A stretch of 23,246 nt of DNA, taken from positions 1 through 23,246 of IMG/VR virus record IMGVR_UViG_3300009149_002794, one strand, 5' to 3'. The position numbers and the translations under genes were made by a program. The notes beneath the pieces were generated by a model. That model searched no databases, was not told where the DNA came from, and saw only the letters and a list, made by a program, of their open reading frames with translations. The DNA comes from a virus. This document shows positions 1 through 21,240 of the stretch, piece after piece (within the stretch, counting starts at the first letter, position 1; each line of letters starts with the position of its first letter).

Positions 1-3000
1 AGACGAAAGGTTGCCGCCGAGAAGTTCTACAAAACATTCTTAGAGAACATCGACCCGAAGATCAAAGCGGACATAGAGGACCAGATGAACAGGAGAATCA
101 ACGGATATGTTCGTCAAGACTACAAAAAAGTACCTCTTGTTGTTGATGGGCTTGATGCTACCTTCGGAGGTAGGGGGCTTAGAATGCCAGACTACAAACT
201 GGATTCAATCGGGTTTCTTTCAAACAAGGGGCTAGGTATCAACGCAAACGGAGTAGGACTAGGCAAAACCATGATGGCTATTATATCGACCGTGCAAGAT
301 GTTCAGCAGGGCCGATACAAGAGACCTTTATTTATCGTACCGAGACAGGTCTATCAGAAATGGATTGATGAGATTATCCAACTATTCCCCGGACAAAAGG
401 TAGTAGGGTTCGGAAACTTAGGCACTAAATACAATGTGGAACGGTCCGAGGATATTTCGGACGCTATTAAGGACGGTGATATTACCGTAATGACCCATGA
501 GGCCATTATGAAGATGGGCTTTAAAGAGGAAACGGTAGATAGATTAAGTTTAAATTTGATGAATGCTTATGATGAATCAGCCGTCCAATACAAAACCGAA
601 AGAGCAAAAGAACTTGATACCGCCAAACGAGCAGAAATGATTGGTAAAGGAAGAGCTAGGGCTGGTATAAAAATAGAGGATTTAGGCTTTGATAATATAA
701 TCGTGGACGAGGCCCACAACTTCAAAAACATCTTTTCAAGGGCTAAGTCTCAGGAAGGAGAGAAGAAATTCAGGGGAAGATGGGGCGGGTTACAGGGGCC
801 AAGCTCATCGAGGGGGGTAAAATTGTGGTTCATGTCACAGTATATTCAGAAATTGAACGGCGGCCGAGGTGTAAAAATGCTCACCGCTACACCGTTTTCT
901 AACAATCCATTGGAGTATTACAACATGCTTTCCTTAATGGCCATGGACGAAATGAAAGCCATGGGCATTGATAACATCAATACCTTCATGGACACCTTCG
1001 TAAAGTCCAAGCACACCTTTGTCGTGAAGGCGGGCGGGAAGTTTGAAATGGGAGAAGTTATCGAGGACTGGCAGAACGGGGAACTCCTGAAAGACTTTAT
1101 CGGACGCTATATTGATTTTAAGGACGGAGAGGACTACGGAGTCGAAAGACCCACTAAACACATCAGAGACCACCGCCTGAATCCCACAGCCGAGCAATTA
1201 CAACTCATCGACGAGGCCCAAGAACTCCTTGAACCGAAATTCAAAGACCAGGGGGGAACACTGGTATACATCGACGAAGCCAAAAAGATTACCCTCAGTC
1301 CTTCACTGAGTCGCTACTACAAAGGACCGGCCATGAATGCCAAGCAGTTTATCGAGACTTCACTGAAACTGATGGCCATGATGAACATGATTAAGGGGAA
1401 CAAAAGAAAGACCGGCCAGCTAATCTACTACCCTTTGGCCGTGGACACAATGCCACTTGTGAAGGATTACCTGATTACCGAGCTAGGCTATAAGCCTTCT
1501 GAGGTTGGAATCGTCTCAGGGGCCACAACAGACGCACAGAGAGAGAAAATTAAGACTGGATTCAATGACGGCTCTATTAAGGTGATTATCGGGTCCGACG
1601 CTGTAAAGGAAGGAATCGACCTACAAGAAAAAGCTACGGATCTTTTCATCACTTCTTACCCATGGAGACCTACTGATATTACTCAGGTAGAGGGAAGAAT
1701 CCACCGACAGGGGAATGAATACCCGAATGTGCGCGTCCACTTCTTATCCGCAAATGACACCATCGATCCTTTCCTTTTCCAGAAAATGGAAACTAAGGCC
1801 CGTAGGCTTGCAAACGCTAGCGCACTGGACCAAGTAATGGACGTAAGCGATATTGATTGGGAGGCGGCCAAAGCTGACCTCATCAGAGATCCAAGGGCAA
1901 GACTTGAGGTACAGAAGGCCCAAAAGAAACAGAACATTGACCTTGAATTGGCGGCTGCCACGGCTGAAAAAGCCATGATTAACGACACCATAAACAAAGA
2001 GAAGAATCTTGTGGAAGAGATTGAATACACTAAAGGGAATATGAAGGATTATCGGGAGGGTCATAATATGCACGATTATTACAAAAAGAAGTTGAAGAAA
2101 GCCGAGCAGAAACTCAAAGACTTTCAGAAGAGAGAAATCGACCTGGACGAATTGGCGGCCCGCGCGGAAGAATTGACGATTGTGGAAAAGGTAAAGTCCG
2201 AAGAAGCCAAAGTTATCGACGCTGAATTTGCGGAGAAGGCCAAGGGGTTACAGGAATACAGACAGATTGAACCGGCACAGAATGACTACACTGTTTTCGA
2301 GAACCAGATTATCGAAGAGAACAAGACCTTTATGCAGAAGAAAGAGAAAAAAACAGTAACCGAAACGGAGAGTAAGGAGATCACACCACAGGAAATGCAA
2401 AAGAGACTCGACAAAGTAAAGGCCGATAAGGAGATAGCGCAGGAAGTCAAAGAGGATATTCAGAAAGTTGAGGAAGAAAAGGCCATCGAGCAGGAAGTAG
2501 AAAAGATGAGAGAGGAAGAAAGCTACTCCGAAATCATCGACCGAATCAAGAAAAACAAAATGCCGGTCGAGGAAGCCAGCGAAACACTGGACTTGTTACA
2601 GGCAATCAAAGCACCTGAGAATATAATAAAACAGGTCGAGGAATACAAGACAGGGCTTGAAAAGGCCATGGTCAAAGATATTGAAAACGAACTCAAAGCC
2701 GTCGAGAATGACTTAGAGGAAATCGAAAAGGCCGCCGTGGAAGGGAAGCTGTCAGGCAAAGAAGTATCAAATCTTATTTCGAACATTTTAAAAAAGAACC
2801 GATTCGCTTTCACGCGTAAGGGAACAACGCTTGAGGACTGGATTGACGCGAACATGTCAGCAAAGGATTGGCCAAGCTTTGTCAAAAACTTCCTTAATCT
2901 TTACAAGGAGGCTATCGAAAAAGGGAACAAATGGCCAGTACGGCCAGAAGTTCAGGACTTTATGAACAAGCTGGAAAGTGGTATAATGGACGATGTACAA

Positions 3001-6000
3001 ATGGAAGAGGTCACTAAATACCTACCAGAACATCTTAAACAACCACTCAATGCAAGAAAAAAGTCCACACCAACAGGAACTAAGACAGTTCAGCCAAGCC
3101 GCGGCCGCACTGAGCCAGATGTCGGAAGAGGAACAGAACTCAGTGATGGAGCAGATAAAGCAGTCAGTGAAAGAGTCTTAGAAGATGTAGAAGCCAGTAC
3201 CAGTGATGATTACGGTCCCGGCCACCCATGGTACTACAAAACTCATGAGCCACCAAAAGCTGATGATATTCTTCCGTTTGGAGACCATTCAACATTCTTA
3301 CCAGCAAAATCAAAATATGCTTCTGAACTTGCGCGATATAAAGAAGAGCTTAAAAAGGATATTGAAACATACAATGATATTGTTGAGCGAGGCGCCGACG
3401 CGCTTAGTGATTATGATAAGAATATTGCACATGGTGGCGATGTAGAGGGGGCTGTGAACATGGCGCTATCTTTGAAGACTTCGCATATATCAAACGATAA
3501 AGGAGTTATCAATATGCTGAGTGAAAAGCTCGGTAAAAAGAAACCATACAAGGAAGATGGAATAAAAACCAAAATAAAAGAAGTCCAGAAGCTTAAAACT
3601 GAGAACGTAGAATTAGACGGTAAACCAGTTGAGGTTGTTGCCACACCACAACTTGATACGAAGGGGTATCGTGACAAAGTTTTGAATGTTCTTGTAGAAC
3701 ATGAGAACGGAATGGACCAGATCGTTGATTCAAAAGATGTTGAGGTAGTTCCTCATTCGGACGAGATAATTGAGCCACCAAGCAAACCACCAGAGCCACC
3801 GGCGCCAAAGGAAAGAAAGGAAAAACCCGAAAGACCCAAACCTCAGAAGATAGACCTTGGTAAGCTAGACCGTGTTCGTGTCGTTATTCAGGACCGCATG
3901 TTACCGGCCGAGAGGTTACAAAAGAAAGCTGGGGCGGTTACAGAGGAAGAGGACATCTATCTTGCCGAGGAACTGTACAGCGGAAGAGTTACCGATGCCA
4001 TCGAGACATTCCAAAAAGAGAAGGAAGACCCGATTCGCAAGAAGATTGACCTACTGACTAAAGGGGAGAATCAAGCCCTATTGAAAGGTTTAATACAAGA
4101 CTACTTACATCTGAAACATGCGCCAGAAAGGAATAAAGCTCACTATGATGGAGCGGCGGGAATAAAGACGAAAGAAGCCAAAGAGAGGATTCAGCTAATA
4201 GAAGCACACCCAAGGTTCCAAGATATAAAACTAGGAGCCAGCTTAATACAAGAACTGGCAAGTTCGCTTCCTCAATTTTTACAGCAAAACGAGTTAATAA
4301 CCGATGAAACCTTCGAGGTTTTGAGTAATACATACAAAGAATATGTTCCTTTAAACAGGATAATGGACGACGAAACGGACTTTGTAAATACCTTGGGAAT
4401 CGGGAAAGGGTTTGATATTCGAGGTAATGAAGTTCAAAGGGCCGTCGGTAGTCGTCGTCAGATTGACGATATTTTCGCCAATGTGGTCTCAAATTGGGAG
4501 CGAGCTATAATGAGAGCCGAGAAGAACAAAGTGGGTCAGAGCGTGTACAGTTTCACAATGAAGTACCCGGAATTGGGAGTTTTCGAAATCATGCCGGCAA
4601 TCCCCGTACACCTCATGGACAAAGACGGAGGGGATTATTGGGTAAGGCAAGCACCAAAGGCTGATAATATCCTCAGTGTTAAACTGGAAGGGAAATCGAA
4701 ATACATTAAGATCAACGACCCGAACCTTGCGGCGGCGCTCAAGAACCTTAATGTAGACAACTCAAATCTGCTTATCAAAATTCTCGCACCGTTCACAAGG
4801 TACATATCAATGATAAATACCTCGCTGAATCCTGAGTTCATTATCAGCAACTTTTTAAGAGACATACAGCAATCGACCCTGAACAATGTAAATGACATGG
4901 GTCTTAATAAAGCCGTGAAGACCTCAACAAGAGTATTTAGCGCTCAGAAGGGAATAATGGACTTTTACCGAGGGAAAGATACGGAAATGTCACTACTGTA
5001 CAAGGAGCTGAAAGCTCAAGGCGGTACAACCGGATTCTTTAACATCAGGAACAAGGAGGACATCGACGCTCTACTAAGGACAGCAGAGAAGGTATGGTCA
5101 GACGGCGCAATCGGTATGCCTATGAAGATGGGTAAGAAAGTAGCCGACGCTATATCCGTGATGAATGACATCATTGAGAACGGCACAAGGCTTGCCACCT
5201 ATCAGGCGGCACTTGAAATGGGCAAGAGTAAGGCTCGCGCGGCACAGATGGCAAAAAATATTACAGTCAACTTCAACAAGAAAGGACAATTAGGGCCCAC
5301 AATCAATGCGCTGTATGCTTTCTCAAATGCTTCCATTCAGGGGTCTTTCAGAGCTTTCAAGGCATTAAAGAACCCAAAGACGGCAATACCGATTATTACT
5401 ACCATTGTTACTTTGTCGCTTGCGCTGAGTGTGTGGAATGACTGGTACGACGAAGAGGACTACGCGCGTATCCCCGAACATGAGAAGGAAGGCAACTGGA
5501 TATTCATGTACGGCGACGGAGACTACGTTAAAATTCCCCTGCCATGGGGATTCAATGTGTTCAAAGTCGCCGCTGATTACAGTTACTCAATGGCTAAAGG
5601 AGACACATCAGGTAAATACGGAATAGGACGCACAGCAGTAGCCCTAATTAACGCTTACAATCCTATTGGGGGGTCTTCTGTTGGTCAGGCACTTACACCG
5701 ACCATGTTGCGCCCAGGCTTCGATATAGCCACCAATACATCGTGGGCAGGGTACAACATCGCACCAGACAACTACACCAACATAAAAGAATCCCTGAATT
5801 ACTTTGAAAGCACCAATGATTTATTCAAATCGGCCGCCGTTATGATGAGCAAGGCCACAGGTGGAGAAGGCGCCAAGCCTGGCATGATTGAAATATCACC
5901 AGAGGACCTTGAGTATATTTGGGCGCAATACACAGGTGGTATTGGCACTTTCCTTTCACGAACTCAAAACTACCTTGGGAATATGTTCACAGGAGAAGAG

Positions 6001-6861
6001 ACTCCGATAAACGAAACTCCTTTCAAGCGTAGGGTTATGGGAGAGGTAAACCTAGAAAAGTTCAACCGCAGTCAGATGTATGACTATCTGGACCGCTCCA
6101 AAGAAGAGATACTGGCCCCCGAAGAGCGACCAAAGCTTTTGGCCGTCGTGAAAGATGAACTCAGCGCTGGACGATTGGATAAGAAAGAAGCCATCAGTAA
6201 GATGAAAGAGTACGACCGATGGCAGGAGGACTTGCAACTGGTGGACGAAAAGGCCAAATACATCAAAGAGAAAGGTCTCACTGGTGAAAAGCTCGGAAGG
6301 TTCTATGAGGCCCTGCAAGACAAGGATTTTATGAAGTCAAGAGGACAGGACACTTTCAACAAGACTCAGATCAAGATTCTAAAATCCTACACAGGAAATG
6401 CACCGGCCAGCGCGGACGCTAAAAAAAAAGCAACTGAGGCCACTACCGAAAAAGGACTGATAAGCGCCGTATTGCAGTACGCTAAGGCTTTCAGTATTGA
6501 CGCTGATTCGGCCTTCGTGACCCTATTCACAGGCGAAAAGCTCAAAGATGTACGCGGAGACTCCGTTATCATGGAGCGCATGAGCTTCGAGAAGTCCACC
6601 GAGGTCAAAAAGAAACTAGCCGATGGTATGGTACTGGACGCTATCAAACTGGACTACACGGTCCCGCTCGAATTGGGCGGCAGTAACTCAGAGGGCAATC
6701 TGAAAGTAGTCACCACTGAGGAATGGGCCAGCTACACACCAGTAGAAAACTACCTGGGCGACAAGCTGAACTCAGGCGACATCGACGAGAAGGAAGCACA
6801 ACGGCTTATTAAAGCATTTAAAGACGGTGAAATAACCGCAGAAGAGATATATAACCAATAA
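1..6861 (+). CDS. Giant polyvalent phage protein: SNF2-type helicase plus LPD38-like region (5' partial)
   Basis: The frame is open from the first base, so the protein begins upstream; 2286 residues are visible and the first ATG (85) is probably internal. Superfamily 2 SNF2-type helicase motifs are seen: motif I GVGLGKT (about 253-273), motif II VDEAHN (703-720), motif III LTATPFSNN (880-906) and motifs V/VI ending EGRIHRQGN (1690-1716). Long charged coiled coils follow (about 1900-2760), then a proline-rich linker (about 3770-3845). The next part resembles the large polyvalent protein-associated region LPD38, with a NTSLNPEFIISNFLRD core (about 4816-4863) and one hydrophobic segment (about 5383-5436). 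The tail reads DYTVPLELGGSN, an HNH-like motif with Tyr where His is usual. By analogy with polyvalent proteins of phages and conjugative elements, it may be carried in the virion, enter with DNA and act on host or phage DNA; that role is inferred. The next gene starts 4 bases downstream. Confidence 0.85.
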   Translation, partial: RRKVAAEKFYKTFLENIDPKIKADIEDQMNRRINGYVRQDYKKVPLVVDGLDATFGGRGLRMPDYKLDSIGFLSNKGLGINANGVGLGKTMMAIISTVQDVQQGRYKRPLFIVPRQVYQKWIDEIIQLFPGQKVVGFGNLGTKYNVERSEDISDAIKDGDITVMTHEAIMKMGFKEETVDRLSLNLMNAYDESAVQYKTERAKELDTAKRAEMIGKGRARAGIKIEDLGFDNIIVDEAHNFKNIFSRAKSQEGEKKFRGRWGGLQGPSSSRGVKLWFMSQYIQKLNGGRGVKMLTATPFSNNPLEYYNMLSLMAMDEMKAMGIDNINTFMDTFVKSKHTFVVKAGGKFEMGEVIEDWQNGELLKDFIGRYIDFKDGEDYGVERPTKHIRDHRLNPTAEQLQLIDEAQELLEPKFKDQGGTLVYIDEAKKITLSPSLSRYYKGPAMNAKQFIETSLKLMAMMNMIKGNKRKTGQLIYYPLAVDTMPLVKDYLITELGYKPSEVGIVSGATTDAQREKIKTGFNDGSIKVIIGSDAVKEGIDLQEKATDLFITSYPWRPTDITQVEGRIHRQGNEYPNVRVHFLSANDTIDPFLFQKMETKARRLANASALDQVMDVSDIDWEAAKADLIRDPRARLEVQKAQKKQNIDLELAAATAEKAMINDTINKEKNLVEEIEYTKGNMKDYREGHNMHDYYKKKLKKAEQKLKDFQKREIDLDELAARAEELTIVEKVKSEEAKVIDAEFAEKAKGLQEYRQIEPAQNDYTVFENQIIEENKTFMQKKEKKTVTETESKEITPQEMQKRLDKVKADKEIAQEVKEDIQKVEEEKAIEQEVEKMREEESYSEIIDRIKKNKMPVEEASETLDLLQAIKAPENIIKQVEEYKTGLEKAMVKDIENELKAVENDLEEIEKAAVEGKLSGKEVSNLISNILKKNRFAFTRKGTTLEDWIDANMSAKDWPSFVKNFLNLYKEAIEKGNKWPVRPEVQDFMNKLESGIMDDVQMEEVTKYLPEHLKQPLNARKKSTPTGTKTVQPSRGRTEPDVGRGTELSDGADKAVSERVLEDVEASTSDDYGPGHPWYYKTHEPPKADDILPFGDHSTFLPAKSKYASELARYKEELKKDIETYNDIVERGADALSDYDKNIAHGGDVEGAVNMALSLKTSHISNDKGVINMLSEKLGKKKPYKEDGIKTKIKEVQKLKTENVELDGKPVEVVATPQLDTKGYRDKVLNVLVEHENGMDQIVDSKDVEVVPHSDEIIEPPSKPPEPPAPKERKEKPERPKPQKIDLGKLDRVRVVIQDRMLPAERLQKKAGAVTEEEDIYLAEELYSGRVTDAIETFQKEKEDPIRKKIDLLTKGENQALLKGLIQDYLHLKHAPERNKAHYDGAAGIKTKEAKERIQLIEAHPRFQDIKLGASLIQELASSLPQFLQQNELITDETFEVLSNTYKEYVPLNRIMDDETDFVNTLGIGKGFDIRGNEVQRAVGSRRQIDDIFANVVSNWERAIMRAEKNKVGQSVYSFTMKYPELGVFEIMPAIPVHLMDKDGGDYWVRQAPKADNILSVKLEGKSKYIKINDPNLAAALKNLNVDNSNLLIKILAPFTRYISMINTSLNPEFIISNFLRDIQQSTLNNVNDMGLNKAVKTSTRVFSAQKGIMDFYRGKDTEMSLLYKELKAQGGTTGFFNIRNKEDIDALLRTAEKVWSDGAIGMPMKMGKKVADAISVMNDIIENGTRLATYQAALEMGKSKARAAQMAKNITVNFNKKGQLGPTINALYAFSNASIQGSFRAFKALKNPKTAIPIITTIVTLSLALSVWNDWYDEEDYARIPEHEKEGNWIFMYGDGDYVKIPLPWGFNVFKVAADYSYSMAKGDTSGKYGIGRTAVALINAYNPIGGSSVGQALTPTMLRPGFDIATNTSWAGYNIAPDNYTNIKESLNYFESTNDLFKSAAVMMSKATGGEGAKPGMIEISPEDLEYIWAQYTGGIGTFLSRTQNYLGNMFTGEETPINETPFKRRVMGEVNLEKFNRSQMYDYLDRSKEEILAPEERPKLLAVVKDELSAGRLDKKEAISKMKEYDRWQEDLQLVDEKAKYIKEKGLTGEKLGRFYEALQDKDFMKSRGQDTFNKTQIKILKSYTGNAPASADAKKKATEATTEKGLISAVLQYAKAFSIDADSAFVTLFTGEKLKDVRGDSVIMERMSFEKSTEVKKKLADGMVLDAIKLDYTVPLELGGSNSEGNLKVVTTEEWASYTPVENYLGDKLNSGDIDEKEAQRLIKAFKDGEITAEEIYNQ

Positions 6862-7447: not shown

Positions 7448-7678
7448 ATGCCAGTAAACACGAAGACGAAGTTTTACAACTTCATGGAGGTAAACAATCT
7501 CCGAACTATTGATATTCGTAATGCGACAATGGGTACCGGTGAAACCATCGGCTACCAAACCATTCAGGATTTCCGCCATGGTTACGGTTCTTTACCGACA
7601 GTGACCACACTTAAAAAGATTGCTAAAGCAGTCTCTTCACTGATTGGCCGTGAGGTCGAGCTTGGAGAATTAGTCTAG
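7448..7678 (+). CDS. Small Cro/C1-type helix-turn-helix regulator
   Basis: 76 residues. The second half fits an XRE (Cro/C1) helix-turn-helix: a TIGYQTIQDFRHG recognition region, then LPTVTTLKKIAKAVSSLIG and the closing VELGELV, which matches the family's last helix. There is no oligomerisation or cleavage domain, so it is Cro-sized rather than LexA/CI-like. It has its own consensus promoter and is followed by about 450 non-coding bases with a 12-base palindrome at 7914-7925 that could be its operator; this link is inference. No Shine-Dalgarno sequence precedes the ATG; the leader is T-rich. Confidence 0.7.
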   Translation: MPVNTKTKFYNFMEVNNLRTIDIRNATMGTGETIGYQTIQDFRHGYGSLPTVTTLKKIAKAVSSLIGREVELGELV

Positions 7679-7689
7679 TAATTAGATTT

Positions 7690-7830
7690 CGGGGTGGTCT
7701 TTTCCCACCTCGGTACCTGATTAACAGGAACACGGCTCACCCGCCAGCGGATAGGTTATAGGGTGAATAAGCCGAGGTCGCAAGACCGGGGATCGTCCGA
7801 AAGCGATAGTCAACGAAAAGACTGTTGTAA
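7690..7830 (+). ncRNA. Structured RNA candidate downstream of the regulator gene
   Basis: No ORF. Several helices can be drawn by eye. They are GGTGG/CCACC (7693-7697 with 7705-7709), CCTG/CAGG (7716-7719 with 7725-7728), and a long arm CGGCT/AGCCG (7733-7737 with 7770-7774) stacked on CACCC/GGGTG (7738-7742 with 7761-7765). Also present are GGTC-GCAA-GACC with a GNRA tetraloop (7776-7787), ATCG/CGAT (7792-7795 with 7804-7807) and AGTC/GACT (7808-7811 with 7820-7823). ACCT (7707-7710) can alternatively pair with AGGT (7775-7778). It should be transcribed from the promoter at 7381. I recognise no known RNA family; it may be a regulatory 3' UTR, a riboswitch-like element or an independent RNA. 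The strand is inferred from that promoter. Confidence 0.5.
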
Positions 7831-8047
7831 GGAATATATTCTGTGCTCATTAACATAAACAAAAAGAACTCCTTCCAAGAAATTCTTCTGAACCAGTTTC
7901 ACTAGTTACTTTCATTGTATACAATTTTCAGAAGAAATCAAGCTTAAACCCAACGGGGACAAAAGCTCCTGTCACCGAAAAGTGACACTTTGAGTGTAGC
8001 TAATGACATTCTTTGTCTTTATTTTCACTTAGAGTATTATTTTCTTC
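7831..8047. other. Non-coding control region with dyads
   Basis: No convincing gene. It holds a 10-base perfect inverted repeat TTCTTCTGAA/TTCAGAAGAA (7883-7892 and 7927-7936). Within the loop is a perfect 12-base palindrome ATTGTATACAAT (7914-7925), which could be a repressor operator. It also holds a hairpin TGTCAC-CGAAAA-GTGACA (7970-7987). A 9-codon ORF at 8003-8032 is too short to support. The T-rich stretch after 8010 lacks a run right behind the hairpin, so I do not call a terminator. Confidence 0.5.
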
Positions 8048-8076
8048 TTGCTTTTCCTCGGATATTCGATTATACT
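8048..8076 (+). promoter_or_regulatory. Sigma70-type promoter of the recombination operon
   Basis: TTGCTT at 8048-8053, a 17-base spacer, and TATACT at 8071-8076. It precedes the run of genes beginning at 8130. The bases just before the -10 (TTCGAT) match those of the promoter at 7381, suggesting a shared sigma factor or regulator contact. Confidence 0.7.
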
Positions 8077-8129
8077 AGAGTCAGGTCAAGAAGTTACCTA
8101 CTTAAAACTTCCTTTTAATTCCACTCATT

Positions 8130-8276
8130 ATGTTCACAAAGACTTGTGGAAAATGCGGTGCCGAGATGTATCGAGACGAAGTTCTCATTAATTCCGCTGT
8201 CAACGACAGGGAAGAGGACAAGTTTGCGACCATCTGGGTCTGTTCAGATGATGAGTGTGACGGTTCGGAATCTTAA
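8130..8276 (+). CDS. Small zinc-ribbon-like protein
   Basis: 48 residues, below the usual ORF size cut-off. It has two Cys pairs, TCGKCG near the N-terminus and VCSDDEC near the C-terminus, spaced as in a single zinc ribbon. It is the first ORF after the promoter at 8048, with ATG about 47 bases past the expected transcription start. No Shine-Dalgarno sequence. The function is unknown; small Zn-ribbon ORFs are common in early phage operons. Confidence 0.55.
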   Translation: MFTKTCGKCGAEMYRDEVLINSAVNDREEDKFATIWVCSDDECDGSES

Positions 8277-8464: not shown

Positions 8465-9181
8465 ATGGCCAAAAGTAATGTACCGGCCGTAGCCCCCGAA
8501 AAGTCCTACAAATTATCACAATTTCTAGGGCCACAGGGCTACACACCAGCAAAGATTGAGCTAATTCGTCAGACTGTCGCAAAGGGGACAACTGATCTTG
8601 AACTTGCTTATTTCCTTTCAGTAGCCAAAGGAGTCAATCTGAATCCTCTTGTGAAAGAAATCTGGTGCTATAAGGACAATAAGAACAACCTTATCATGTT
8701 TGCAGGCCGTGACGGTTTTCGCCGCCTATGCTTACGAGACGAGGGTTTTATTTCCATCAACTCAATGGTGGTACGAGAAGGAGACACCTTTTCTATTTCA
8801 ACAGAAATGGGTCAGACGATAGTTTCTCATTCCTTCTCACCGACCGACAACGAGCGCCACAAAAAGACCATTCTAGGCGCTTACGCTATTTTGAGGTCCA
8901 AAAGGGCGGGGGAAGTTTCTGAAATCGTGGAGTGGGCCGACATGGGCCGATACAACAAAGGCTACAACACATGGAGTACCCACCCGGAAGAAATGATTAA
9001 GAAGGTGGCCGAGGTCCACGCGATGAAGAAGTTCACCAACATCAGTTCGCTTTACACGGAAGCAGAGTTCGAAATCAAAGACGAGGTAGTCCAAAACGGA
9101 CTCGACGAGCCTAAACTTATTGAGGCAGGACAGGAGAAGAAGGCGCATATAAGAAAGAAATTTCATAACAAGAAAAAATAA
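8465..9181 (+). CDS. recT: RecT/Bet-family single-strand annealing protein
   Basis: 238 residues. The family core is visible. LNPLVKEIWCYKD (about 59-71) matches the Bet LNPFTKEIYAF block. FAGRDGFRRLC (about 79-89) matches the VGVDGW region. Near the C-terminus WSTHPEEMIKKVAEVHAMKK corresponds to the WxTHPxRMLRHKAxIQxAR block. The length is close to lambda Bet. Such proteins coat and anneal single-stranded DNA after a nuclease has resected the ends. The nuclease-translocase gene lies just downstream (9324), matching the usual SSAP-exonuclease pairing. The C-terminus is very basic (KKAHIRKKFHNKKK). The start has AAAGAAAG upstream and the context GCCATGG. Confidence 0.88.
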   Translation: MAKSNVPAVAPEKSYKLSQFLGPQGYTPAKIELIRQTVAKGTTDLELAYFLSVAKGVNLNPLVKEIWCYKDNKNNLIMFAGRDGFRRLCLRDEGFISINSMVVREGDTFSISTEMGQTIVSHSFSPTDNERHKKTILGAYAILRSKRAGEVSEIVEWADMGRYNKGYNTWSTHPEEMIKKVAEVHAMKKFTNISSLYTEAEFEIKDEVVQNGLDEPKLIEAGQEKKAHIRKKFHNKKK

Positions 9182-9183
9182 TT

Positions 9184-9321
9184 ATGAGTGAATTTGAAAT
9201 AACCACTTTAAACAATAGTGAAAAGGAAACAGTTTTTGTAAGAGTTGATTTTACTATCGAAAATAGTAGATCAGCTGAATTTATTAAAGAGCTTGAAGAA
9301 TTTCTATTAAAAGTAAAATAA
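9184..9321 (+). CDS. Small acidic hypothetical protein
   Basis: 45 residues, begins MSEFEITTLNNSEKETVFV and ends in a charged helix (AEFIKELEEFLLKVK). It starts 3 bases after the recT stop and ends 3 bases before the next ATG, a perfect fit in the operon. It is more AT-rich than its neighbours. The family is not recognised; its position between the annealing protein and the nuclease-motor makes an accessory role possible. Confidence 0.55.
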   Translation: MSEFEITTLNNSEKETVFVRVDFTIENSRSAEFIKELEEFLLKVK

Positions 9322-9323
9322 CC

Positions 9324-11387
9324 ATGAACCAATACTCCGCACTATCAGAGGCCGACAAAAAAGACCTTTTGGACAATTACCTGATTGAACACTTCTCAAT
9401 CAGTGCCATAAATGAGTTCATCAGCAACGAGAAAGCCTTTGAAAAGAAATACATATTTAAAATCTACGACCAGACTTCCGGATTATCTCAGATTATCGGG
9501 AGCGCCTACCATAAAGCACTTGAGGAATACTTCATCAGCTATAAAGAAGAGGGAATACAGACCACCTTCGATGCGCTCGTTATGATTTGCTACGAGTACA
9601 TCGAATCAATCCCGGCCACAAACTGGAGACCACAGGTAAAAAAGACCATCGAGGAACTGAAAGCCGAAGCAATCAAGCGAGTGAACTTCCTTATTAAGAG
9701 CTTTTTGGCCGAGGTAGATACCTATTTGAGTGACATTCAGGAGATTCTATTCGTGGAGAAGTCATTCACTGAGTTCGTAACGCTGGACGGCATCGACCTT
9801 CCTTTGCCTTTCAAGTTCAAAATGGACATCGGTTACATCGACAAAGAAGGGTATTTGTGTGTCTCAGATCACAAGGCCAAGAAGAACTACACCAAAGAAG
9901 AAGATGTAAACATGGATTGCGCGAACCAATCAATCGGGTATGCAGTCGGACTCAAGTCAGTCTTTGAAAGGGAAGAGTACGCAGGGCTGGTAAAGAAGTA
10001 CCCTAAGATTAAGGAAGGGATCAAGCGCTTCAACTATTACGAGAACAAATACAGCAAGAACATGGACGGCTCAAGTCAGATAAAGCGTATTAGTATTGAT
10101 ATTGGAGACTCTTCACAGATGTACGAAGCCATGCTGTTCGACGGAGTATGGCGGGTACTTAGGGCCGTACAGGACCTGGACTATGTTTACCTGATGAATA
10201 AGAACGATTACTTCCAAGACAAAGGCGAAATGGTAGACTTTTGGGTCAAAACAAGAGTCGAAGGCTTAGAAGGTTTCCCACAACTGAACGCTAAACAGAA
10301 GAGAATCATGGGCCGCCGCCGAAAAGACCTCAGAACCTCAAGTATATCCAAAATCCCAAAGGCGGCGATCACCGCATTCAAAGAGCAAACCAAATTTGTA
10401 TCATATAACACAGAAGACATGAGCGCTTTATCAACACAAGAAAGAATAGTCCAACGGCTGAAAACATTCGGGTACATGGTCAATGTAGCCCATGTAGTAC
10501 ACGGCTACTCCTGCGACACTTACTTACTAGAAATCGGGGCCGGTATGCAGTCCAAGAAGATTTACAACTACCGCATGGACATCGCCCAGGCTGTTGGCAA
10601 GGCCGACGTGCGTATCGCTAAAGGGTTACTGACTTACGATAACTTCCCTTATGTAGCCATCGAAGTAAACAACGACCAAGAATCCCGCAGATTTCTTTCT
10701 ATTGATGAAAGCGGTCTTAGCGGTGATTCCTTGCCTATCGGAAGAGACAACTTCGAAAACCCAATATCATGGGCCCCATCTAATCCATCTACTCCGCACA
10801 TGCTAGTCGCTGGTGCGTCGGGGTCCGGGAAGTCTATCGCACTCAAAACAATGATTGAGGCGGCCATAGCCCAAGGGTACGAGGTTACAATCATCGACCC
10901 GAAGAGAGACGAGCATTTCAAAGCCTTCTCAGGAGTCACAATCTACCACGAAATGGAGGATATTGAATTGTTCCTTGAGATAAAGGTCGAGGAAATGGAC
11001 GCAATCTACAAGTCGGGTTCCAAAACCAAGCAGATCATATTCTTCGACGAAGCTTCTGACTGTTTTACAAGGCAGACCGCAAAGAAGAAAGGAGTCGATG
11101 AGTTCAGAACATTACAGCAGAACACTCTTTTACTGGCTCAAAAGGCCCGTTCCGCAGGGATTCATCTTGTACTGGCTTCTCAAAGATTCTCAGTCAAAGT
11201 CCTTTCTGGTGACGCTAAGGCTAACTTTCCAGCCCGCCTATGCCTCACTGTTACCTCTGGTGTCGATTCTAAGGTCATGCTTGATGAGATAGGGGCCGAA
11301 GCATTGAACGGAAAGGGAGACGCGCTTTACAGGACTCCTGAGTTAAGCGAGCCTGTTCGTATTCAGACTTACATGCTGAAAGATTGA
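9324..11387 (+). CDS. Fusion of RecB/Cas4-type nuclease and FtsK-type DNA translocase
   Basis: 687 residues with two parts. Residues about 20-290 are a PD-(D/E)xK nuclease of the RecB/Cas4 type. His63 lies in IIGSAYHKALEEYF, Glu145 in VEKSF, Asp168 in MDIGYID, Asp182 and Lys184 in SDHKAKK, and Gln202 with Tyr206 in QSIGYA. Residues about 375-687 match the FtsK motor. An alpha-domain-like stretch (LLEIGAGMQSKKIYNYRMDIA; PYVAIEVNN) comes first, then Walker A GASGSGKS (497-504), Walker B IIFFDEASD (571-579), LVLASQR (615-621) and the FtsK-like MLDEIGAEALNGKGDALYR. The gamma DNA-reading domain of FtsK is absent; the protein ends after the motor. Known nucleases beside RecT are lambda Exo, RecE or AddB-type; a dsDNA pump fused to the nuclease resembles HerA-NurA in logic. 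It probably resects phage DNA ends for RecT. Confidence 0.85.
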   Translation: MNQYSALSEADKKDLLDNYLIEHFSISAINEFISNEKAFEKKYIFKIYDQTSGLSQIIGSAYHKALEEYFISYKEEGIQTTFDALVMICYEYIESIPATNWRPQVKKTIEELKAEAIKRVNFLIKSFLAEVDTYLSDIQEILFVEKSFTEFVTLDGIDLPLPFKFKMDIGYIDKEGYLCVSDHKAKKNYTKEEDVNMDCANQSIGYAVGLKSVFEREEYAGLVKKYPKIKEGIKRFNYYENKYSKNMDGSSQIKRISIDIGDSSQMYEAMLFDGVWRVLRAVQDLDYVYLMNKNDYFQDKGEMVDFWVKTRVEGLEGFPQLNAKQKRIMGRRRKDLRTSSISKIPKAAITAFKEQTKFVSYNTEDMSALSTQERIVQRLKTFGYMVNVAHVVHGYSCDTYLLEIGAGMQSKKIYNYRMDIAQAVGKADVRIAKGLLTYDNFPYVAIEVNNDQESRRFLSIDESGLSGDSLPIGRDNFENPISWAPSNPSTPHMLVAGASGSGKSIALKTMIEAAIAQGYEVTIIDPKRDEHFKAFSGVTIYHEMEDIELFLEIKVEEMDAIYKSGSKTKQIIFFDEASDCFTRQTAKKKGVDEFRTLQQNTLLLAQKARSAGIHLVLASQRFSVKVLSGDAKANFPARLCLTVTSGVDSKVMLDEIGAEALNGKGDALYRTPELSEPVRIQTYMLKD

Positions 11388-11585: not shown

Positions 11586-11840
11586 GTGGACAATTTCATA
11601 ACAAAAAATTTAACATTGGCCGCCGTATTCAAAATGATGGGTTTTGATTACACAGAAGCAGAAGCGGACCCGAGCGGGATATATATTTTCAGATATAATG
11701 TTTCCGAGAAGGCCCTAAAAGATATGCAGTATTGGGCCGCGCTTTACTACAACAACAATCTATTTGTTCCACCTAAGAAATTCTTAGATACCTACAAGAC
11801 TCTAAAATTTATGATCTACAATGAAAAAACCGATTCCTAA
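11586..11840 (+). CDS. DUF5659-like small phage protein
   Basis: 84 residues from a GTG at 11586; a TTG at 11556 would add 10. The sequence VDNFITKNLTLAAVFKMMGF, a central YIFRYNVSEKALKDM and the ending KTLKFMIYN match the pattern I associate with DUF5659 (ITKDL-LAA-L...GF...F-F-....LK..IY). The biochemical role is unknown. It starts 5 bases after the membrane-protein stop and its 3' end overlaps the ninB-like ORF by 20 bases, implying translational coupling. The identification rests on memory of the family pattern. Confidence 0.6.
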   Translation: MDNFITKNLTLAAVFKMMGFDYTEAEADPSGIYIFRYNVSEKALKDMQYWAALYYNNNLFVPPKKFLDTYKTLKFMIYNEKTDS

Positions 11841-12267
11841 ATTCAAAGGCAGTATCACAATGGGGCTATTTATTCCTTTCAATCAGGAGGAATGGCGCCG
11901 CCATGTAGCCACGCTTGAGGGGAATGAGGTAGAAGTAGTGTGTAAGAAGTACCGGGCCTACAAATCACGGTCCAATGAGCAGAATTCGTATTACTGGTCC
12001 GTAATTGTGCGGATTCTGTCAGACGATCTAGGCTACACCGACGAAGAAGTACACGAGATTCTTAAATTCAAATTCCTTACTGATGTAAGGGAGTATGTAT
12101 TTGAGAGAGAGGGGCAAAAGGAAACAAAGCTATTCAATGTACCACTTACGACGACCAACCTTACAACACAACGCTTTGAGGACTATTTATCAAACATTCG
12201 GACATGGGCCAGTAGAGAGCTTTCAATCTACATTCCCCAGCCGAACGAGACTAACTTCGATTATTGA
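11821..12267 (+). CDS. ninB: NinB-like recombination protein
   Basis: 148 residues. RSNEQNSYYWSVIVRILSDD, DEEVHEILKFKFL and the closing RTWASRELSIYIPQPNE match the NinB family, whose members have R-S-x-EQN-x-YYW and a C-terminal YIPxPNE. Lambda NinB (Orf) binds single-stranded DNA, interacts with SSB and supports the Red pathway, replacing RecFOR. Its position after RecT and a nuclease agrees. It overlaps the preceding ORF by 20 bases and has no Shine-Dalgarno sequence. Confidence 0.78.
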   Translation: MKKPIPKFKGSITMGLFIPFNQEEWRRHVATLEGNEVEVVCKKYRAYKSRSNEQNSYYWSVIVRILSDDLGYTDEEVHEILKFKFLTDVREYVFEREGQKETKLFNVPLTTTNLTTQRFEDYLSNIRTWASRELSIYIPQPNETNFDY

Positions 12268-12288: not shown

Positions 12289-13314
12289 ATGAGATACTTT
12301 GACACATTCACAGGCTACGGAGGATTTACTTTAGGAATAAATAATGCTTATGGAACCCATAATAATAGACAAATCAATGATAGGGTTCGAGGGGAAACCG
12401 AGAATATACCAGAAGATTTGTCCGACAATAACAGCAAGAATATACAAGGAGCCATACCTACTTGCGTGGGTTTCTCCGAAATCGACAAATATGCAATCCA
12501 AGTCTACCAAAAACACTTCCCTAACCACAAAAACTATGGGGACATCACAAAGCTCGATCCCGGAACTATTCCCGACTTCGACTTACTCACAGGAGGATTT
12601 CCTTGCCAGGCTTTCAGTATTGCTGGAAAAAGAATGGGATTTTCCGACACTAGGGGAACTTTGTTCTATGACCTCGCTAGAATCATCAAGCATAAAAAAC
12701 CTAAACTACTTCTACTTGAAAATGTCAAAGGGTTGCTATCTCACGATAACCAGCGAACATTTGAAACAATCCTGTGTACCCTTTCAGAACTGGGGTATGG
12801 TGTTGAATGGCAAGTGCTTAACAGCAAGAATTTCGGAGTCCCACAAAACAGGGAGAGGGTGTTCATTGTCGGACATCTTGGAGGATTCAGTGGAGGAAAA
12901 GTATTTCCTGTCGGAGAAGCAGATGGAACAATTGACGAGAGATATGGAAAGACTTCCCCCCAGGTCGAAGTTGCATCGACTATAAGGAGTAGATATGGGA
13001 ACGGAACCGGTAGTCACATCCAGCAACTCAACCAACCCACTCACTCAAACGATAGAGTTTATTCCGATGAAGAATTGAGTCCTACCCTAAATACAATGGG
13101 GGGTGGAAATAGGCAGCCGTTTATATCAAATGACACTAGAATCCGAAGACTCACACCAACAGAATGTGAACGCTTACAAGGGCTACCAGATGGCTGGACT
13201 AAAGAAGGAACTGAGGGTGCAATCAGCGACACACAACGCTACAAACTATGCGGAAACGGAGTCACAACTAATGTAGTCCAAGCCATAATGGAAAAAATCC
13301 TAGCCCTTTACTAA
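12289..13314 (+). CDS. dcm: C5 cytosine DNA methyltransferase with odd N-terminal insert
   Basis: 341 residues. Motifs in order: I FTGYGGFTLG (7-16), II/III FSEIDKYA (62-69), IV GGFPCQAFS with catalytic Cys106, VI LLLENVKG (140-148), VIII QNRERVF (186-192), and IX/X RRLTPTECERLQGLP and CGNGVTTNVV. It transfers methyl from SAM to cytosine C5, probably shielding phage DNA from restriction. The target-recognition region (about 195-265) is short. Odd: about 35 residues (23-57; 12355-12459) are inserted between motifs I and II. Read in the +1 frame the same bases give a methyltransferase-like peptide (see findings). No restriction gene is near, so it is an orphan enzyme. Confidence 0.9.
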   Translation: MRYFDTFTGYGGFTLGINNAYGTHNNRQINDRVRGETENIPEDLSDNNSKNIQGAIPTCVGFSEIDKYAIQVYQKHFPNHKNYGDITKLDPGTIPDFDLLTGGFPCQAFSIAGKRMGFSDTRGTLFYDLARIIKHKKPKLLLLENVKGLLSHDNQRTFETILCTLSELGYGVEWQVLNSKNFGVPQNRERVFIVGHLGGFSGGKVFPVGEADGTIDERYGKTSPQVEVASTIRSRYGNGTGSHIQQLNQPTHSNDRVYSDEELSPTLNTMGGGNRQPFISNDTRIRRLTPTECERLQGLPDGWTKEGTEGAISDTQRYKLCGNGVTTNVVQAIMEKILALY

Positions 13315-13364: not shown

Positions 13365-13739
13365 ATGAACCAAAACACAAAAATAATAAAAGACCTGGAC
13401 AATCTGGTAAGCCGTATCGTGAAGGCCCGCGACCCTATGTGCAAACTTGGAGTGAATTGTTACTACACTAGCAGGAGCGTTGACCCAGCCCATGTGTTCG
13501 GGAGGACAAACATGGCGACAAGATGGGAGCTTATGGCCGTGTTCGGGGCTTGTCGGGAGTGCCATTCGTACATCGACACACACCCGGACAAGAAGAGGAA
13601 ACTATTCAGACAGCTAATGGGATTCGTTATGTACGACAAATTCGAGGCACTTTCAAATACCAATGTGAAGTATTTACCAAGTGATCTTAAAGAAATCAAA
13701 AAAACCCTCACTCAAGAGCTAAATTATCTTGATTTCTAA
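13365..13739 (+). CDS. ninG: NinG-like HNH/zinc nuclease
   Basis: 124 residues. It has LDNLVSRIVKARDPMC, a first Cys pair Cys26/Cys32, HVFGR with His43, then CRECHSYID with Cys63, Cys66 and His67. This Cys-Cys-His-Cys-Cys-His arrangement matches NinG (Rap)-like phage recombination endonucleases and HNH proteins; lambda NinG acts on branched recombination intermediates. It is shorter than lambda NinG (about 200). ATGAACCAA start, no Shine-Dalgarno sequence. The promoter at 13729 overlaps its 3' end. Confidence 0.72.
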   Translation: MNQNTKIIKDLDNLVSRIVKARDPMCKLGVNCYYTSRSVDPAHVFGRTNMATRWELMAVFGACRECHSYIDTHPDKKRKLFRQLMGFVMYDKFEALSNTNVKYLPSDLKEIKKTLTQELNYLDF

Positions 13740-14246: not shown

Positions 14247-14696
14247 ATGAAAGTAGTAATACGACAATACCCTGAGTCGGTAATCAGCCGACCAGTCACA
14301 AATGAGGACCTTCCAAGAGTCCTTGAGACCGTACCGATCATGTACGAAGTCCTAAACAGGAAGACCGGCATGTATAAAGACGGCCACGCTTTGGCCCATG
14401 TTCAGGTGGTCGATAAGGACCCCTTGCGGTTTTATGTACTGAAAGACGGCTCTTATGTTATCAATCCCGTGATAGTGCGCCACACCAGGCACACCGTACA
14501 GAAAATGGAAGGTTGCCTTTCGTACTGTACCAAGAGACCAATTCTGATGGACCGCTACCACAAGTGCGATGTGGAGGTCCAGCTAATCAACGACAATGTT
14601 CTAGGCGAGCCAGTCCGATTCACTCTAGCAGGAATTGACGCTCAGATTGTTCAGCACGAAGTAGATCACATGGACGGAAAAACAATTTATTATTAA
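14247..14696 (+). CDS. def: Peptide deformylase, phage type
   Basis: 149 residues. Three diagnostic motifs are present: motif 1 is degenerate (GHALAHVQ, 46-53, with Gln53), motif 2 EGCLS (88-92, Cys90) and motif 3 QHEVDH (136-141). Cys90, His137 and His141 bind the metal and Glu138 is catalytic. The enzyme removes the formyl group from nascent proteins. Phage deformylases lack the C-terminal helix of bacterial ones; this protein ends soon after motif 3 (MDGKTIYY), as they do. It begins just after the tRNA-like element, so two translation-related functions lie side by side. Confidence 0.88.
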   Translation: MKVVIRQYPESVISRPVTNEDLPRVLETVPIMYEVLNRKTGMYKDGHALAHVQVVDKDPLRFYVLKDGSYVINPVIVRHTRHTVQKMEGCLSYCTKRPILMDRYHKCDVEVQLINDNVLGEPVRFTLAGIDAQIVQHEVDHMDGKTIYY

Positions 14697-18877: not shown

Positions 18878-19189
18878 ATGCCAAAACTTAAAAACATCTA
18901 TAGGCTCAAATTTTTTATTCTACTTTCAGCCATGGGGTACAATAGATCTCTGAAATACATGAAATATGTGGAGGGTAAAACGTACGAGGAATTAGAAAAG
19001 ACAATGAAAGAGCTAGAAGGTAAAGATCCGCTTGTTAACGAAATCACAATCATTATACGCGGGGAGAAAGACAACAAAAGGCTTAGTAAGATTCTGAGAG
19101 AAAAGCTAAAAATAGATACATCATTAAAAATGATGATAGAAGGAGAGGAATTTAAAAATATTACCTTTAGCCGTAATGCCGAGACTTAA
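18878..19189 (+). CDS. Basic hypothetical protein
   Basis: 103 residues, Lys-rich, helical (KTYEELEKTMKELEG; KRLSKILREKLKI). It overlaps the terminase small subunit ORF by 14 bases. The N-terminus has a short hydrophobic run (FFILLSAMG) that is too short for a clear membrane span. No family is recognised. Confidence 0.5.
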   Translation: MPKLKNIYRLKFFILLSAMGYNRSLKYMKYVEGKTYEELEKTMKELEGKDPLVNEITIIIRGEKDNKRLSKILREKLKIDTSLKMMIEGEEFKNITFSRNAET

Positions 19190-19763
19190 AAATAAAAATT
19201 GGGAGAAGTTCGTTGTAGCCTATGTTTCGAAAGAGACTTATTTAAGCGGACTCTATTCTTATGCAAAGGCTTATGGCTATAAACTGACAAGCAAAAAGGA
19301 AGTTGACGTATGCAAATCTAATGCTTACCGATTGCTTACTTACCCAGCGATTCAAGATAGAATAAAAGAATTGATGGAGAGGACTGGCTTTGATGATGCC
19401 TCAGTGGACCTTGAGCATCTGAAAATGCTGAGACAGGACATAGACTTCAAATCAAAGATGGCGGCCATTAAGGAGTACAATTCACTCAAGAAGCGAACTA
19501 CTCCAAATGCTCCGACAATAAACCAAAACATAATCTCGTATGAACAGCACATTATTAACAACACCTACGGAACAGCAAGAGTGGTCGAGCCACTTCCAAA
19601 AGATGAGAAGGAACTACAACGAGTACAGGAATCTTTACCTGAAGATCAACACGAAGTCATCGGGGCTAATCAAATTCAAGCGCAATCTGGCTCAGGAGAT
19701 ATTCGAGAGTCTAATAGCGGAGCAGGTGAAGCAGAGGAAGCCTATCCGGGCTTTAGTTCTTAA
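19176..19763 (+). CDS. terS: Terminase small subunit
   Basis: 195 residues. Residues about 8-110 match the phage small-terminase pattern: NWEKFVVAYV, LYSYAKAYGY, SNAYRLLTYPAIQDRIKELM, then DFKSKMAAIKEYNSLKKR. This is the DNA-recognition subunit of the packaging motor. The last 70 residues are acidic and low in complexity (SGSGDIRESNSGAGEAEEAY) and lie over the start of the large subunit in another frame. Confidence 0.75.
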   Translation: MPRLKNKNWEKFVVAYVSKETYLSGLYSYAKAYGYKLTSKKEVDVCKSNAYRLLTYPAIQDRIKELMERTGFDDASVDLEHLKMLRQDIDFKSKMAAIKEYNSLKKRTTPNAPTINQNIISYEQHIINNTYGTARVVEPLPKDEKELQRVQESLPEDQHEVIGANQIQAQSGSGDIRESNSGAGEAEEAYPGFSS

Positions 19764-21240
19764 AGGGAGACAGGAGGGTATCACAACCGATGTAGCGGGG
19801 CTTATCTTTCACAACACCTCATCTAACTGCGGTCGAAAGAGTGTCGTGGTCTCGCATGAGCCCGACTCAACCAAGAGTATCTTCGAAATCTACAAGACTT
19901 ACTACGATAATCTGGACCCGATGGTCCAGCCAATGAAGCGTTACGACAATAAGAACACGCTTACTTTTGCCAATCCGAGCAACGATGAAGAGGAAAAACG
20001 GCTAAATCCCGGACTTGGAAGCTCTATATCTGTCTTTACAGCCAATAAAAGCGGAGGTGGTAGGTCACAGACCATTCATAACTTTCACGGCTCGGAAGTT
20101 GCTTTTTGGCCTACGGAAGCCAAAAGATTAATGCTTAATATTTTACAGTCAGTGCCAGATCGTCTGAATACTATGGTCATTTTGGAGAGTACAGCCAATG
20201 GTACATCGGGGTATTTCCACGACGAATATCAGAAAGCCAAGAAAGGACTCAGTGATTATTTGGCAATCTTTATTCCTTGGTGGGTCCATGAAGAGTATCA
20301 GAGACCAAGACCCGAAGACATGAAGCTGGACGAGTACGAGCAGAACCTTTTGGACAAGATGTTAGCCTGGCGATTCAAAGACTACCGAATCACTCACGAG
20401 CAGGCTCTAATGAAGCTCCAATGGAGGCGCTGGGCTATCCGTAACAAGTGCCACGGCTCCGAGAAACAGTTCATGCAGGAGTACCCAGCCACCGACAAAG
20501 AAGCCTTTCAAAAGAAAACAGGGCTTGTTTATTACGCTTATGACCATGATGTTCACTTCATTGAGCATTATGAACCAAGAATTGAGGACCATATCTTTTT
20601 CGGAGGGTACGACTTTGGAGCCGAGCACCCATGGGCCTATGGACTATTTGCCATCGATCGCTACGGCACCATATACAAATTCAGGGAGATCAAGCTCCAA
20701 GGTTCAACCGCTCAGGAAATGGGAGACCTTATCGCCAAGGCTGAGACCCACCACAACACTGGTCAGAAATTCCCTGTACTCAAAAGGTACAGAGGTCACG
20801 ACTCAGGGGCCAAACAGATAGCTTTAGAATTAAAGCGCCTTAAAAGAAACCCTGTAAAGCTCACCGAGGGGATTGTGAAGCGAGAGCTAGGGATTACTAC
20901 CGTCAATGGGCTATTTCTTGAGAACAAGTATTTCATCTCAAACGAATGCGTGAATACGGACTATGAGCTTCTGAACCATGTTTACAAGAACGAATACACC
21001 CAGAGCGAAGAGTTCAAGGAAATGACAGCCATCGATGGAATACTGAGACTGGAGGGAGAAGAGCATAAGGACGCTGATGTAGTGAAAGAGTTGGACGATT
21101 GCGTAGATGGAGACCGATACGGCATTACTTCAATCATGCACCGCAAACCAAAAGAGAAGCAAACAACAATCGAGCAAGTCCGAAGAATGGCAGAGAAAAG
21201 CTATCAGAAAGAAAAGAAAGGTATTGGTGTGAACTGGTAA
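19540..21240 (+). CDS. terL: Terminase large subunit
   Basis: 566 residues. The ATPase starts with LKGRQEGITT (74-83), a variant Walker A, as in terminases reading KARQLGxST. Then comes HGSEVAFWP and the Walker B-side TMVILESTANG. The nuclease half has GGYDFGAEHPW, RGHDSGAKQ and DDCVDGDRYG, giving Asp residues for the RNase H-like site. It drives headful or cos cutting and DNA translocation into the prohead. ATG at 19540 gives a 224-base overlap with terS in the +1 frame; an ATG at 19603 would shorten it to 161. Even the conserved region (YLKINTKSSGLIKF) begins well inside terS. Confidence 0.9.
   Translation: MNSTLLTTPTEQQEWSSHFQKMRRNYNEYRNLYLKINTKSSGLIKFKRNLAQEIFESLIAEQVKQRKPIRALVLKGRQEGITTDVAGLIFHNTSSNCGRKSVVVSHEPDSTKSIFEIYKTYYDNLDPMVQPMKRYDNKNTLTFANPSNDEEEKRLNPGLGSSISVFTANKSGGGRSQTIHNFHGSEVAFWPTEAKRLMLNILQSVPDRLNTMVILESTANGTSGYFHDEYQKAKKGLSDYLAIFIPWWVHEEYQRPRPEDMKLDEYEQNLLDKMLAWRFKDYRITHEQALMKLQWRRWAIRNKCHGSEKQFMQEYPATDKEAFQKKTGLVYYAYDHDVHFIEHYEPRIEDHIFFGGYDFGAEHPWAYGLFAIDRYGTIYKFREIKLQGSTAQEMGDLIAKAETHHNTGQKFPVLKRYRGHDSGAKQIALELKRLKRNPVKLTEGIVKRELGITTVNGLFLENKYFISNECVNTDYELLNHVYKNEYTQSEEFKEMTAIDGILRLEGEEHKDADVVKELDDCVDGDRYGITSIMHRKPKEKQTTIEQVRRMAEKSYQKEKKGIGVNW

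Follow-up and report, generated by a model that had tools for sequence, protein, structure and literature searches.

The window analysed here, the whole of a 23,246-base virus record, encodes a protein (P0001) in which a RecB-type PD-(D/E)xK nuclease and an FtsK-type double-stranded DNA motor are joined in a single chain. The gene product is probably the exonuclease half of a phage exonuclease–annealase recombination pair, in the form of a motor-driven, ring-pump enzyme, and the probability of this reading is put at about 0.72. Motor–nuclease machines and exonuclease–annealase pairs are both known kinds of system; the fusion joins the two, and does so in a new way. The gene and its parts are laid out as follows.

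9324–11387, + strand: nuclease–FtsK fusion gene, 687 amino acids in one unbroken frame, with homologues in 38 further contigs
9324–10181, + strand: RecB-type PD-(D/E)xK nuclease domain, residues 1–286
9510–9929, + strand: span of the catalytic residues H63 (9510–9512), E145 (9756–9758), D168 (9825–9827), D182 (9867–9869), K184 (9873–9875) and Q202 (9927–9929)
10191–10406, + strand: linker, residues 290–361
10407–10661, + strand: FtsK alpha domain, residues 362–446
10731–11384, + strand: FtsK beta (RecA-like) motor domain, residues 470–687
10812–10835, + strand: Walker A motif GASGSGKS, residues 497–504
11034–11060, + strand: Walker B motif IIFFDEASD, residues 571–579
11148–11219, + strand: R609 (arginine-finger position) to R621 and K632 of loop II

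Architecture of the nuclease–motor protein

The open reading frame lies exactly where an earlier note on this DNA had placed it. Pfam recognises PDDEXK_1 at residues 23–218 (E 4.2e-7, 30.6 bits against a cut-off of 22), FtsK_alpha (PF17854) at residues 362–435 (E 3.1e-6, 27.7 bits against 22.9) and FtsK_SpoIIIE (PF01580) from residue 488 (E 1.8e-12, 47.7 bits against 24), with E-values that exclude a chance match. PHROGs divides the protein in the same way (phrog_1218 exonuclease at 24–227, phrog_1358 FtsK-like at 363–687), and all three Pfam families are matched at E <= 0.01 in 21/21 members of the first alignment. The possibility, allowed for in the earlier note, that neither a PD-(D/E)xK nor an FtsK profile would match significantly is refuted by these above-cut-off matches, and its proposal of a nuclease and an FtsK-type dsDNA motor in a single chain is borne out by Pfam, PHROGs, the family profile and the fold matches. 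In an AlphaFold2 model of the P0001 monomer built with the family alignment, two ordered domains are connected by a stretch (about residues 290–362) that mostly has pLDDT below 50, a linker predicted to be disordered. The mean pLDDT of the full-length model is 82.8 and its pTM is 0.50, a value expected of two domains on a flexible tether.

The nuclease half is a PD-(D/E)xK nuclease of the RecB/AdnA/RecE kind, with a predicted active site that is intact and under strong constraint. Both the fold and the PDDEXK_1-type active-site motifs (GxxxH, D, DxK and Q(x)3Y) are present in P0001. H63, D168, D182 and K184, already placed correctly from the sequence, are conserved in the aligned homologues (35/35, 36/36, 37/37 and 37/37, respectively), as are E145 (36/36) and Q202 (36/37), which had been overlooked. 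Modelled alone by AlphaFold2, the domain reaches a pLDDT of 92.9 and a pTM of 0.88, and the solved folds closest to it in VIA-align are AdnA (Z 16.4), a putative exonuclease of Eubacterium rectale (15.8) and RecE (15.0), followed by ACE1 of the Cas4 family (15.0), Dna2 (14.6) and AddB (14.5), with a weaker match to lambda Exo (9.4). Although fold comparison gave relatives, the sequence profile of the nuclease searched against the PDB gave no credible one. The nuclease domain has no conserved Fe-S cysteines, no column holding eight or more cysteines among 35 homologues, and the Fe-S cluster of Cas4/AddB-type enzymes is therefore not expected. Of the former description as a RecB/Cas4-type nuclease, the RecB-type PD-(D/E)xK assignment stands and the Fe-S enzyme of the Cas4/AddB type does not.

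Judged by sequence profile and predicted fold, the motor is FtsK proper (alpha–beta), not HerA. The family profile matches the motor chains of Pseudomonas aeruginosa FtsK (2iuu) with an E-value of 8.5e-94 over profile positions 360–678, and the best structural matches of the full P0001 model are likewise FtsK motor chains (Foldseek, 2ius, E 2.3e-23), HerA being far weaker. The Walker A and Walker B motifs occupy exactly the positions first read for them, and G497, G502, K503 and S504 of the former, D575 and E576 of the latter and R609 at the arginine-finger position are each conserved in 38/38 sequences. In the structure of P. aeruginosa FtsK with DNA, contacts are made by R632 and K643 of loop II and by K657 and R661 of loop I (PMC7321959). 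Alignment together with that structure maps the loop II pair to R621 and K632 of P0001, which the family keeps (36/38 and 38/38), while the loop I equivalents, G646 and K650, fall in variable columns; as a detail of one FtsK structure, the loop I contacts are not used as a family-defining feature. Neither FtsK_4TM nor FtsK_gamma is matched by Pfam in P0001, and the C-terminus of every complete homologue is at most four residues from the end of the beta subdomain, implying that the gamma domain, whose absence from P0001 had been noticed before, is absent throughout the family. In FtsK this domain serves sequence reading and XerCD activation.

Distribution of the fusion and its genetic neighbourhood

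A scan of IMG/VR with FtsK-anchored alignments reveals the same single-chain fusion in 38 further contigs, most of them with the whole chain, and the homologues in the first alignment are about 26–49% identical to P0001. The fusion, presented at first as the trait of one phage, is instead found in a family of dozens of uncultured phages. Artificial joining of two genes, whether by an assembly error, which had been named as a way in which the reading could fail, or by a frameshift, has nothing in its favour and is refuted by the other 38 contigs, which rule out an assembly join. The gene is in pieces in L021 alone and is cut at the contig end in L096, L119 and L120. In L021 (7911–9926) it is spread over three frames and its recT also has in-frame TGA stops, a pattern that may stem from errors in sequencing, from decay of this gene copy or from the use of TGA as a sense codon.

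With P0001 alone as the query, scans of viral and genome contigs found nothing, since the peptides selected lay outside the conserved stretches. The nuclease half has no tblastn match among isolate phages, and none of 50,697 phage records contains the fusion, as judged from four lineages. Neither four fusion proteins from four lineages, searched by tblastn against 50,697 phage records, nor P0001, searched against 72,556 plasmids, gave a match at 80% coverage, the places listed being in the motor half only in both searches, and the scan of bacterial genome contigs gave only FtsK motors among the best 80 matches listed. In ten bacterial genomes, selected on the basis of earlier loci and including several Patescibacteria, the nuclease profile has weak matches in five, four of these in frames of at least 900 residues.

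The genes around the fusion in the window include an annealing protein upstream and two recombination-type genes downstream.

8465–9181, + strand: RecT-family single-strand annealing protein, 238 amino acids (Pfam RecT E 3.6e-27, 95.7 bits; phrog_2780 E 1.6e-22)
9184–9321, + strand: small ORF of 45 amino acids between recT and the fusion gene, read from the sequence
11821–12267, + strand: NinB/Orf-like recombination mediator (phrog_72 E 1.4e-13)
13365–13739, + strand: NinG/Rap-like DNA junction endonuclease (phrog_5034 E 2.1e-12)

In the window, only the 45-residue ORF separates recT from the fusion gene, and the adjacency pointed out in the earlier note, which had also proposed a search for the same arrangement in other phages, proves to be general across the family. 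In 34 of 39 loci an annealing gene of the RecT/Bet type is no more than 1.8 kb away from the fusion, compared with 1 of 101 FtsK-only loci, a count that is descriptive because the annealing-protein profiles were built from fusion loci. The independent test is the comparison with Pfam RecT, which is matched in 32 of 38 records that carry the fusion, compared with 3 of 50 viral records that have FtsK only (Fisher p 1.3e-14). In the latter three, over 20 kb of contig separates recT from the FtsK gene, and the sole FtsK-only locus with a near annealing gene (L057) is itself another nuclease–FtsK fusion. The rarity of recT in FtsK-only viral records indicates that the association belongs to the fusion. 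The annealing gene often overlaps the start of the fusion, by up to about 95 bases. Five loci have no adjoining annealing gene. Those of L096 and L120 appear to run on across the contig ends, which places recT upstream of the start that is missing; L101 and L119 are truncated by contig ends; and the recT of L013 lies in another part of its contig, on the opposite strand. The partners come from several families (phrog_148, phrog_2780/252, phrog_2449 and phrog_561/4171), and supported branches of the fusion tree force at least seven changes of the main partner class, implying that the fusion accompanies the annealing function and not one particular gene.

Several other features of the window deserve mention. 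A C5 cytosine DNA methylase (12289–13314, PF00145 E 3e-81) lies between the NinB- and NinG-like genes in the recombination cluster, and a phage-borne peptide deformylase is encoded at 14247–14696 (PF01327 E 4.3e-15). Positions 85–6861 encode a polyvalent protein of 2,258 amino acids with an N-terminal SNF2-type helicase and LPD38 at 1790–1980, the C-terminal part of which recurs in L014 (34% over 619 columns) and, weakly, in L015. The intergenic stretch at 7676–8140 has a predicted RNA fold more stable than that of shuffled copies (z -3.2), and no Rfam family is matched in the window.

Motor phylogeny and nuclease types

In a tree of 153 motors, the 38 fusion motors together with those of L057, L095 and L127, the last of which is cut by its contig end, lie on one side of a branch with 99% SH-aLRT support, and the remaining 112 viral and bacterial FtsK motors lie on the other. 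The gene of L057 (6553–9083) begins 8 bases beyond the stop codon of a RecT-like gene and encodes a YqaJ domain (PF09588, at the cut-off in one scan and above it in another) fused to an FtsK alpha–beta motor, so that a YqaJ-type domain takes the place of the RecB-type one on a motor of the same branch. L057 represents either a nuclease swap or a second fusion; its exact place is unsure, since the tree is a quick one and its branch is long. L095 (6004–6957) is a standalone motor of this branch that shares 51% identity with the L016 motor over 301 columns; no nuclease gene is recognisable beside it, and its record yielded no recT. The nuclease-free state may be a loss or a relic, and it suggests that the motor may be useful alone. 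A tyrosine-recombinase-like ORF lies directly downstream of the L095 motor.

The nearest relatives of the RecT in the window are those of L007, L009 and L012, each of which encodes a YqaJ-like nuclease next to recT, directly after it in L007 and L009 and some 1.6 kb distant in L012; the Pfam YqaJ score is above the cut-off in L007 and weak, below the cut-off, in L009 and L012. The YqaJ/lambda Exo family PF09588 is matched neither in the window nor in the 38 other fusion records (0/39). A non-exhaustive scan for PDDEXK_1, which missed six fusions including that of the window, found no second gene of this family in the 39 fusion records, only the fusions themselves. The swaps of annealing protein and nuclease around a constant motor suggest that the motor is the core of the module.

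Separate genes for FtsK and for a Cas4/RecB-like nuclease, about 4.7–4.9 kb apart, are present in L133, L134, L142, L146, L149, L152, L155, L157 and L162, and these phages possibly carry the unfused counterpart of the fusion. Reading by eye found a Sak4-like ATPase ORF in L133 and SbcCD-like ORFs in L142. In Mycobacterium phage Thibault (L006), the standalone FtsK-like gp178 lies shortly downstream of the Ku-like end-binding gene gp181, which gives another link between a phage FtsK and DNA ends.

Proposed mechanism and relation to known systems

At the level of sequence, the family has intact predicted ATPase and loop II motifs, no gamma domain and a conserved coupling to an annealing protein of the RecT/Bet type. 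FtsK moves DNA from its beta ring to its alpha ring, through which the DNA exits (PMC7321959), and the nuclease of the fusion is attached N-terminally to the alpha domain, that is, on the DNA-exit side. The alpha–beta domains would form a hexameric ring around duplex DNA, probably at an end or close to one, and the ring would pump dsDNA from its beta face to its alpha face, where the tethered nuclease domains would cut the emerging DNA, leaving or releasing ssDNA that the annealing protein could use. Without the gamma domain, translocation would not depend on sequence. Such an enzyme would be a processive, ATP-driven replacement for the lambda-Exo, YqaJ and RecE nucleases that stand beside recT in related phages. 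This reading draws on the invariance of active-site and motor residues across 35–38 distant homologues, on the confident nuclease model and the FtsK-like motor model, on the RecT enrichment, the partner swaps, the absence of YqaJ or a second PDDEXK_1 gene and the example of L057, and on the alpha-ring exit of DNA and the NinB- and NinG-like genes downstream in the window. Counted against it are the variability of loop I, the distant recT of L013, the lone motor of L095 and the consideration that a pump with a nuclease need not resect. HerA–NurA of Thermococcus kodakarensis, the closest analogue known to work, digests both strands and is reportedly unable to make 3' overhangs (PMC12977600), and HerA–NurA of Deinococcus radiodurans is reported to resect the 5' strand (PMC9960219).

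The behaviour of the T. kodakarensis enzyme would suit a motor-driven double-strand degrader, its pump passing DNA ends to the nuclease, that breaks down the DNA of the host or of competitors or serves nucleotide recycling and lies next to recT only through shared early expression, and six tethered nuclease domains could indeed reach both strands. Such a role is unlikely, however, since the fusion is tightly and repeatedly paired with annealing proteins through several changes of partner, and since YqaJ-type nucleases take its position in sister phages. Because FtsK normally moves chromosomes and standalone FtsK-like genes occur in many phages, the protein might instead act in DNA segregation, concatemer resolution or assistance to packaging, the motor moving genomes and the nuclease trimming or cutting them, with recombination secondary. 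The window has its own candidate terminase genes (19176–21240), though, the domain for sequence reading and XerCD activation is missing and recT is rare in FtsK-only viral records, all of which leave this role quite improbable. Even less probable is a phage-carried anti-phage or anti-plasmid effector of the HerA–nuclease kind: the PADLOC models SspH, mad8 and HerA match P0001, but only over its generic motor half, and the genes stand within a recombination cassette and show no second-component pattern in the loci read.

The best reading is that the protein works like HerA–NurA while belonging to neither family. Both are recombination-linked and pair a dsDNA pump of the ring-forming FtsK–HerA superfamily, a predicted one in the fusion, with a nuclease at the DNA-exit side, and the architecture mimics HerA–NurA because DNA leaves FtsK via the alpha ring, where the nuclease is tethered. 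The label HerA-NurA-like thus holds for the architecture but not for the motor, which is FtsK alpha–beta and not HerA. NurA has an RNase H-like fold, in contrast to the PD-(D/E)xK nuclease of the fusion. HerA and NurA are, moreover, separate chains in a ratio of six to two (PMC12977600), whereas the fusion has one nuclease per motor subunit. With bacterial FtsK and SpoIIIE the fusion shares the alpha and beta domains, the Walker motifs, the arginine-finger position and DNA loop II, and it differs from them in its N-terminal nuclease, its own branch of the tree and the lack of membrane and gamma domains.

AdnAB, AddAB and RecBCD have the same nuclease fold, as the Z-scores of AdnA and AddB indicate, and likewise carry a motor and a nuclease domain on the same chain, but they rely on SF1 helicases, which travel along single strands, whereas the motor of the fusion is predicted to be a ring pump acting on duplex DNA. 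A response to Chi is known for RecBCD and AddAB, and some of these nuclease–helicases carry Fe-S clusters. The lambda Exo–Beta, RecE–RecT and YqaJ–RecT pairs resemble the fusion loci in placing an exonuclease gene directly beside a RecT/Bet-type gene; the lambda-type exonucleases differ in having no ATP motor, whereas the fusion nuclease is joined to a predicted dsDNA pump. The phage exonucleases of phrog_1218 and the phage FtsK-like proteins of phrog_1358 each match one half of P0001, and no matching Pfam, PHROGs, NCBIfam or PADLOC model covers the two-part architecture. No description of a nuclease–FtsK fusion was found in a search of a literature collection with few subscription papers. It seems fairly likely that these proteins constitute an undescribed class of single-chain ring-motor phage recombination nucleases, characterised by a gamma-less FtsK branch of their own, an N-terminal nuclease at the DNA exit, interchangeable annealing proteins and a nuclease that can be exchanged, YqaJ-type for RecB-type, on an unchanged motor.

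The textbook recombination exonucleases of phages, lambda Exo among them, do not depend on ATP, and cells process DNA ends with helicase–nucleases or with the two-protein HerA–NurA. If the proposed reading is true, a dsDNA pump and a nuclease united in one protein, with an annealing protein as its neighbour, would add a third solution for end processing, and the question of pumping versus unwinding would become testable in a single polypeptide. The fusion could also provide a processive, ATP-driven partner for RecT-type recombineering.
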